NCBI RefSeq assembly: GCF_030186535.1
Contig: NZ_JASNVW010000009.1
Span: forward strand, 1 to 47,048
DNA from: Ignisphaera cupida
GTDB lineage: Archaea; Thermoproteota; Thermoprotei_A; Sulfolobales; Ignisphaeraceae
Direction of reading: 5' to 3'
DNA length: 47,048 bases
The position numbers and the translations under genes are program-made. Below the pieces are notes generated by a model. It was not told where the DNA came from. It searched no databases and saw nothing but the letters and a program-made list of their open reading frames with translations. Below, in pieces: positions 28,769 through 30,608 of this stretch. The stretch's first letter is position 1; the number at the start of each line of letters is the position of its first letter.

Positions 28769-29467
28769 TTGATCATTGCACATAGAGGTGCATCAGCCTA
28801 CGCACCTGAAAACACATTAAAATCTTTTAGAAAAGCTTTGGAGATGCATGCAGATGCAATTGAGTTTGATATACGAAGAACTTTTGACAACATACCCGTG
28901 GTTGTTCATGATGAGGATTTGAAGAGAGTTGCGAATATAAATAAAAAGGTTTCTGAGCTTACATTGGAGGAGCTGAAAAGGATTAAGGTTTTTGGAGAAG
29001 AGAATATACCTACATTTGAAGAGGTTTTACAGGAATTTGGAAACAAGATTTTGATGTTTATCGAGATAAAGGATGAGGGACTTGAGGAAGCTGTTGTATC
29101 ATTAATTAGCAAATACAACATTAAAGATAATTGCCTGGTAATATCATTTAACTACAATATTTTAAGGAAGATAAAAAGCCTGGATAGCAAATTAGAGATT
29201 GGGCTATTAACATATTCACATTCGATGCCAATAGACATTGCATTAAAAAGCAAGGCGTTTGCCATATTACCACGATTTAACACAATTACTCCTCGAATAG
29301 TTAAAGAAATACATTCAAAGAATCTAAAGGTTTACACATGGACTATCAACGATGTTTCAACAGCACTTAAAGTTATTGGTTTTGGTGTTGATGGAATAGC
29401 TACTGATGATCCTCACATAAAGAATTCCATATCAAAGCAAGTAACTCTGCAAAAGTTTTTTGATTGA
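28769..29467 (+). CDS. Glycerophosphodiester phosphodiesterase
   Basis: A 232-residue GDPD-family enzyme, which cleaves glycerophosphodiesters to sn-glycerol-3-phosphate and an alcohol. The metal/catalytic residues are in place: H5 and R6 in AHRGASAYAPENT, E32 and D34 in EFDIRRT, and H47 in VVVHDEDL, followed by MFIEIKDE near residue 94 and a late VYTWTIND motif. The start is TTG at 28769, seven bases after a GGAAGGA site; an upstream in-frame stop near 28739 limits the choice. Its product would feed the glycerol-3-phosphate dehydrogenase encoded at 2821-4338. Length is typical for short archaeal and bacterial GDPDs. Confidence 0.9.
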   Translation: MIIAHRGASAYAPENTLKSFRKALEMHADAIEFDIRRTFDNIPVVVHDEDLKRVANINKKVSELTLEELKRIKVFGEENIPTFEEVLQEFGNKILMFIEIKDEGLEEAVVSLISKYNIKDNCLVISFNYNILRKIKSLDSKLEIGLLTYSHSMPIDIALKSKAFAILPRFNTITPRIVKEIHSKNLKVYTWTINDVSTALKVIGFGVDGIATDDPHIKNSISKQVTLQKFFD

Positions 29468-29477
29468 ATTCTTGGCT

Positions 29478-29532
29478 AGGTGATGAAACTCCACCCCTAA
29501 TGAAGAGATGATAGAAATTCCTTTAACTGATT
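29478..29532 (+). ncRNA. Candidate box C/D guide sRNA targeting 16S rRNA
   Basis: Between two convergent genes lies a box C/D layout. C box GTGATGA is at 29480-29486, a ten-base guide at 29487-29496, a weak D' (CTAA) at 29497-29500, a C'-like ATGATAG at 29508-29514, a twelve-base guide at 29515-29526 and D box CTGA at 29527-29530. The flanks pair over seven bases (29467-29473 with 29535-29541). The D guide AATTCCTTTAA is complementary to UUAAAGGAAUU, the universal 16S rRNA segment around position 911-921 that the standard archaeal 915 probe overlaps. The D' guide CTCCACCC complements GGGUGGAG near position 940-947. The length of about 55 nt is normal for archaeal sRNAs. Expression is not shown. 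Confidence 0.72.
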
Positions 29533-30520
29533 AAAAGAATTTCAAAGTTGTTCCAATACCTTTTTTAACAGCCTCACTATACACATACCAAGCTGTTATA
29601 GCATCTTGTATCGCTAAACCTGTTGATGTAAATACTGTAATTTCCTTCTCAGATTCCCTACCCTTCTTCAACCCAGCTACTATCTCCCCCAATTCAGCAT
29701 ATATTTCACTTGGTTCTAAAATACCCATAGATATTGGAACATTAATTTCCCCACTATGTATAGCCTGCTCATAGTCGTCAACAACAATTTTTGCTCTTTT
29801 CAAGATTCGTGGATCTAGCTCTTGTTTACCTGGAGCATCAGCACCCATAGCATTTATATGAACACCTTCTTCAATCCATTCATTTTTAACTATGGGACTT
29901 CTAGATGGAGTTGCTGTGACAATGACATTAGCTTCTTTAACAGCTTCATGAGGAGACTCAACAGCTTTTGCATCTAAACCTAATCCTTCTCTCAAACTTT
30001 GTGCAAGATTCTTTGCCTTTTCAGTAACAATATCATAAATCTTTACAGAGCTTATACTAACTACATACCTCAAACCTTCAACAGAATATGATGATACCAT
30101 TCCAGCTCCTATAAGACCAACTGATGCCTCTTTCAATCCCCATAAATACTTTGTTGCTATAGCTGCTGCAGCACCTGTTCTATACCTTGTTATCACTGTT
30201 CCATCCATGATAGAAAGTGGTTTTCCAGATGAGGGATCTACTAATAGAATAACAGCCATTACAGTAGGTAGTCCATGTATTTGCGGATTCATGGGATGAG
30301 AATTAACTATCTTAACAGCTGCAACATCTAAAGTCTCTAGATATGCTGGCATTGTTCGTAAGTCTCCATTGTATTTTTTAAAGAATAGATAGGATTTAGG
30401 AGGCATTTGAACTTTTTTCAATCCCTTTTCTCTAAAAGCTATTTCAACTAATTCTATGACTTTCTTCATATCAATAACTTTTTCAATATCATTCGCACTT
30501 AGAAATAAAACATTAACCAT
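29531..30520 (-). CDS. Ornithine cyclodeaminase / alanine dehydrogenase family protein
   Basis: An NAD(P)-dependent enzyme of the ornithine cyclodeaminase/mu-crystallin family, about 329 residues. It has the MPPKSYLFF substrate-lysine segment near residue 35, a TGAAAAIATKYL helix, and the Rossmann motif VGLIGAGMVSSYSVEGL near residue 130. Further hallmarks are VTATPSRSPIVK, and NAMGADAPGKQELD, with the conserved Asp region around 220. In archaea members act as alanine dehydrogenase, ornithine cyclodeaminase or reduce imino acids. Substrate cannot be fixed from sequence. The ATG at 30520 is preceded by GGTGA at a better distance than the first ATG at 30535. Confidence 0.87.
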   Translation of the reverse strand: MVNVLFLSANDIEKVIDMKKVIELVEIAFREKGLKKVQMPPKSYLFFKKYNGDLRTMPAYLETLDVAAVKIVNSHPMNPQIHGLPTVMAVILLVDPSSGKPLSIMDGTVITRYRTGAAAAIATKYLWGLKEASVGLIGAGMVSSYSVEGLRYVVSISSVKIYDIVTEKAKNLAQSLREGLGLDAKAVESPHEAVKEANVIVTATPSRSPIVKNEWIEEGVHINAMGADAPGKQELDPRILKRAKIVVDDYEQAIHSGEINVPISMGILEPSEIYAELGEIVAGLKKGRESEKEITVFTSTGLAIQDAITAWYVYSEAVKKGIGTTLKFF

Positions 30521-30608
30521 TCCCAGCTTCACCATTGTTATTTGCTGTGCATGAAAATTATAAGTTTATATGGGTTAAAACACTAATATCGTAAGCTATA
30601 GCTTATGT

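Follow-up and report, generated by a model that had tools for sequence, protein, structure and literature searches.

Analysis of a 47,048-nucleotide stretch of DNA of the heat-loving archaeon Ignisphaera cupida (contig NZ_JASNVW010000009.1, positions 1 to 47,048, hereafter the window) points to a gene for a small guide RNA in a gap of 63 nucleotides between two convergent open reading frames (ORFs). Positions 29480 to 29530 of the plus strand very probably encode an archaeal C/D box small RNA (sRNA) that guides 2′-O-methylation of the 16S ribosomal RNA (rRNA) at A915 and G941 (E. coli numbering). The gene is a further member of a known RNA class, whose double-guide layout is likewise already known.

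Results

The sRNA reads GTGATGA AACTCCACCCCTA ATGA AGAG ATGATAG AAATTCCTTTAA CTGA. From box C to box D, the limits taken here as its ends, it spans 51 nucleotides, inside the 50–70 nucleotide range of the class. Box C (29480–29486) has the archaeal form RUGAUGA, most homologs carrying RTGATGA or ATGATGT. It is followed by the D′ guide (29487–29499), by an internal D′ box ATGA with the expected GA (29500–29503), where homologs also have a -GA tetramer, and by a loop AGAG (29504–29507) that differs in length and letters among homologs. The C′ box ATGATAG (29508–29514) aligns with ATGATTG, GTGATGA and ATGATGA of congeners, and the D guide of 12 nucleotides (29515–29526) leads to the D box CTGA (29527–29530; CUGA in the RNA), which is invariant across the genus. 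A scan for the four-box motif matched the window once, whereas 60 Markov-simulated windows of the same dinucleotide make-up contained no match. The boxes C, C′ and D that the initial annotation had placed in the convergent gap are all present, and its assignment to the C/D box sRNAs is borne out by the conservation of boxes and guides in congeners; of its guide lengths of 10 and 12 nucleotides, the second stands, while the D′ spacer measures 13. Rfam returned no family at gathering score, either for the sRNA or for ten of its relatives. Weak archaeal matches cover the same strand and span far under threshold, sR18, with the lowest E-value, scoring 16.0 bits against 45. The claim that the gene is unannotated holds as far as Rfam goes.

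The targets were read from congeneric 16S rRNA, by searching for guide sites in the 14 kb that surround the rRNA operon of one congener (G003; G000 denotes the source genome of the window and other G-numbers the relatives compared). The D guide forms 11 base pairs with UUAAAGGAAUU, its best and only perfect site in the 14 kb, and the fifth base upstream of box D faces A915 (N+5 rule), so that the complementarity and the site first proposed hold in congeneric 16S rRNA. The D′ guide, read from the ATGA box, forms ten Watson-Crick pairs with AGGGGUGGAG, its best and one perfect site in the 14 kb. Its fifth base opposes the third G of this stretch, which corresponds to E. coli G941, archaea carrying one extra base before it. 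Both guides pair over positions −2 to −11, the D guide with UAAAGGAAUU and the D′ guide with AGGGGUGGAG. With guides of about 10–12 nucleotides, at least nine consecutive pairs including the N+5 position are thus found for both, 11 for D and ten for D′; high methylation at 8–10 base pairs is cited in PMC7089733. Six of the ten congeners yielded no match to the 16S target stretch; in the other four, the 24-mer that covers the D site is identical.

The best sites of the two guides fall in one 37-nucleotide stretch of 16S rRNA. Of 100,000 trials with shuffled guide cores, 1 gave perfect rRNA matches separated by no more than 60 nucleotides, a result that upholds the earlier argument from neighbouring targets. 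Counted on Ignisphaera 16S rRNA, the D′ site lies 27 nucleotides downstream of A915; a neighbouring second site about 25 bases further on had been foreseen, at about G944 rather than at G941 as found here.

BLAST detected homologs in six of the ten congeners, with an extra match outside the genus (G020) to part of the query only. A profile (R1) built from seven sequences added a strong eighth, G001, and two divergent ones, G008 and G007; the pattern of the sRNA is present in the Ignisphaera records JAPWTX010000001.1 and JAJHQM010000011.1. Checking relatives for the same gap, as had been proposed, placed the ortholog at the 3′ end of a gene for a glycerophosphodiester phosphodiesterase-like protein (GDPD) in eight of the ten congeners; a ninth, G003, carries it elsewhere. 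Counting the source genome, the sRNA stands directly behind GDPD in nine of ten sRNA-bearing genomes, and an ornithine cyclodeaminase-like gene is also beside it in most of these. In the tenth congener (G009, L137, G009:C1:1047233-1047919), the space between the two convergent genes holds no sRNA and is an empty site. Eight of the ten sRNA-bearing genomes share the D guide core AATTCCTTTA unchanged, and positions −1 and −12 of this guide vary freely over the family. The orthologs of G008 (L029) and G007 (L030) keep the D′ guide, aimed at G942, with D guides changed to TAATTCCCTTGG and TATTCCCCTGA, respectively; each half can therefore be re-aimed alone.

The 16S rRNA gene of G008 appears to be interrupted by an intron close to E. 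coli position 908 (L128, G008:C10), a few bases before the target of the A915 guide. A link between this intron and the loss of that guide is unsupported: G007 has lost the guide without an intron there.

The A915 guide extends well beyond the genus. Of the 214 genomes of the order, 57 contain the pattern C′-AATTCCTTTA-D; a reversed control gave five matches. Parsing of 59 distinct matches gave 45 of a G886 type, eight of the Ignisphaera type and six others, which include likely chance matches. A recognisable guide pair was seen in 53 of the parsed sRNAs, 45 of which join the A915 guide to a D′ guide for G886. The latter, (A/G/C)TACTYCCC in a spacer of exactly 12 nucleotides, aims at CUGGGGAGUA (16S 883–892, N+5 at G886), so that the two guides of these sRNAs span 883–892 and 912–921, around helix 27. 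Six matches outside the order (L144–L149) have the same G886 partner. The combination of A915 and G886 guides is therefore old, being found across the order and beyond, and the D′ guide of Ignisphaera looks derived. The order-wide genes are not adjacent to GDPD. Elsewhere in Ignisphaera, no G886-type guide with the canonical core was found, leaving aside one uninspected match in G009 (TACTCCCCAGGAGGA). A short insertion sets TACTCCCC apart from TACTCCACCCC (G005, G006), which suggests that the Ignisphaera gene may have descended from a G886-type gene rather than being a separate invention. We read the gene as the Ignisphaera form of this wider A915 guide, with its D′ guide re-aimed downstream from G886 to G941/G942. 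That the re-aiming came about through a small insertion exploiting the likeness of the targets (GGGGAGUA, GGGGUGGAG) is a tentative scenario to which we attach a low probability.

Which tetramer serves as D′ box decides the second target. The initial annotation had chosen CTAA (29497–29500), one base away from CTGA and leaving a 10-nucleotide spacer that fits the range of 10–12 given in PMC7994747, with G944 as site. However, CTAA lacks the GA needed for sheared pairs, its position reads CTCA, CTAG, CTAT or CTCT in congeners, and its register gives eight pairs at the site and better scores elsewhere, as compared with ten uninterrupted Watson-Crick pairs for ATGA. In all congeners carrying the sRNA, a TGA-ending tetramer lies 11–14 nucleotides past box C, and it is the canonical CTGA in G001, G003, G007 and G008. 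Furthermore, 45 relatives, of which most belong to other genera of the order, have a GA-ending box (NNGA) exactly 12 nucleotides past box C; its first base faces base 6 of box C′ as C-G in 27, T·G in 8, T-A in 3 and G-C in 1. The same two positions are C-G in G001 and G003, A-T in G002, G005 and G006, and T·G in G004 and G010. These data make ATGA (29500–29503) the most likely D′ box and CTAA a very improbable one; the spacer is therefore 13 nucleotides and not 10, and the site G941 and not G944.

Several observations weigh against a functional double guide of this kind. In the source genome, base 1 of the D′ box (A) is unpaired with base 6 of the C′ box (A), and the D′ spacer has 13 nucleotides, so that the D′ half of this sRNA could be weak. 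The 16S rRNA of the source genome is absent from the assembly, which is rated 99.9% complete. The pairing flanks described initially amount to about three weak base pairs, one of them G-U, and no terminal stem is conserved in relatives; the single-strand fold of the sRNA is no better than that of shuffled sequences (z 0.14). Finally, the orthologs of G007 and G008 have lost the A915 guide, and A915 is therefore not indispensable. The A-A mismatch and the long spacer, together with a D′ site that would shift by one among species (G941 versus G942), would fit a genuine C/D box sRNA in which the D half is the sole productive guide, the D′ half only anchoring the RNA or having degenerate boxes, and A915 is the sole methylated site. 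We regard this as a minority possibility, since the D′ guide holds 9–10 pairs in most congeners (with one mismatch in G001) and is kept in G007 and G008 despite the changed D guide. The main role of the sRNA might instead be that of a chaperone in the folding of the 16S core, methylation being secondary: the guides of the order-wide relatives extend to the 5′ arm of helix 27 as well, a chaperone role of paired guides is proposed in PMC4644070, and models of the yeast 90S particle place the U3 small nucleolar RNA (snoRNA) on this arm (PMC5354517). The exact N+5 geometry and the pairing over 10 base pairs are what an ordinary methylation guide would show, which makes a predominant chaperone role unlikely. 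An arrangement of the boxes by chance in an intergenic gap could be imagined, given the shortness of C/D boxes and the frequency of TGA at gene ends. This is refuted, to near certainty, by the conservation of boxes and guides in ten genomes whose GDPD proteins are 57–76% identical.

The double methylation guide thus preferred is flanked upstream by the GDPD ORF (28769–29467, plus strand) and on the other side by the convergent cyclodeaminase-like ORF (29531–30535, minus strand), both families being named from sequence alone. Scans for promoters and terminators at the sRNA gave nothing beyond chance, with patterns of bacterial type only, the host being an archaeon. Most archaeal C/D box sRNAs are cut out of longer transcripts (PMC7994747). 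Since no promoter of its own is evident and such sRNAs are mostly processed, read-through from GDPD would be the simplest source, and the sRNA is probably transcribed in this way, the precursor being trimmed to the body protected in the ribonucleoprotein (RNP). The C and D boxes would form a kink-turn and the C′ and D′ boxes a kink-loop, both binding L7Ae; Nop5 and fibrillarin would join. The genes for fibrillarin and Nop5 adjoin each other in the source genome (G000:C1:83708-85255). Through 10–11 base pairs, the D guide would then direct 2′-O-methylation to A915, a residue beside the central pseudoknot; through ten, the D′ guide would direct it to G941. RNP assembly, methylation and any help given to the folding of 16S rRNA are steps that we infer.

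Two further candidate sRNAs were noticed. A second C/D box sRNA is present in the source genome (L035, G000:C1:523142-523178, minus strand) and in two congeners (L033, L034), with a D′ guide region ACCTCCACCGC and a D guide AAGAGAATTGCG; partial matches to both of its guides lie near each other downstream of 16S, within the presumed 23S rRNA of congeneric operons. Another likely pair, L036 (G003:C3:229376-229436) and L037 (G010:C17:2933-2993), combines the D′ guide TACGCAGG(T/C)C with a D guide whose last letters ahead of the D box CTGA are CCTTTA.

Discussion

Archaeal C/D box sRNAs are under-annotated, and conserved ones help to ask why given rRNA sites are methylated. The A915 guide, fixed over a wide archaeal range while its partner changes, offers a clean case for the re-aiming of guides. 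Because A915 adjoins the central pseudoknot of 16S rRNA, either its methylation or the transient pairing could be relevant to how 30S subunits assemble at high temperature. Besides this switch around a fixed A915, a point of interest is that the G886-type relatives cover the region contacted by U3 in yeast (PMC5354517), an analogy only.

Our literature search found no paper dealing with both Ignisphaera and sRNA. The closest reference set is that of PMC4644070, which describes double-guide C/D box sRNAs identified by RNA-seq in seven archaea. The Ignisphaera sRNA resembles them in its four boxes, its two guides of about 10–12 nucleotides, the N+5 rule and two sites at most 100 nucleotides apart on one rRNA; it differs in its host, a genus not among the seven species as given there. 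Helix 27 is already described in that text as a methylation hot spot. Positions in PMC4644070 are numbered on a pan-archaeal alignment, and its 'A915' of N. equitans differs from the A915 considered here. In the same numbering, sR56 of Pyrobaculum calidifontis targets 16S U894 and G925 (Table 3 of PMC4644070). An offset of about 18, which we infer from the assignments to helices 28 and 30 in that text, would put these sites at about U912 and G942. Compared by site positions, sR56 would then address the same two 16S stretches as the Ignisphaera sRNA, with a D site about 3 nucleotides off.

The A915/G886 sRNA of many Thermoproteota shares the D guide core and the layout with that of Ignisphaera; its D′ guide TACTCCCCAG, however, aims at G886, upstream of A915, whereas the Ignisphaera D′ guide aims downstream. 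In eukaryotes, the U3 snoRNA is not a methylation guide. It is modelled as pairing with 18S rRNA at helix 27, near the central pseudoknot (PMC5354517), and is unlike the Ignisphaera sRNA in sequence; the resemblance is an analogy only, and is closer for the G886-type relatives.
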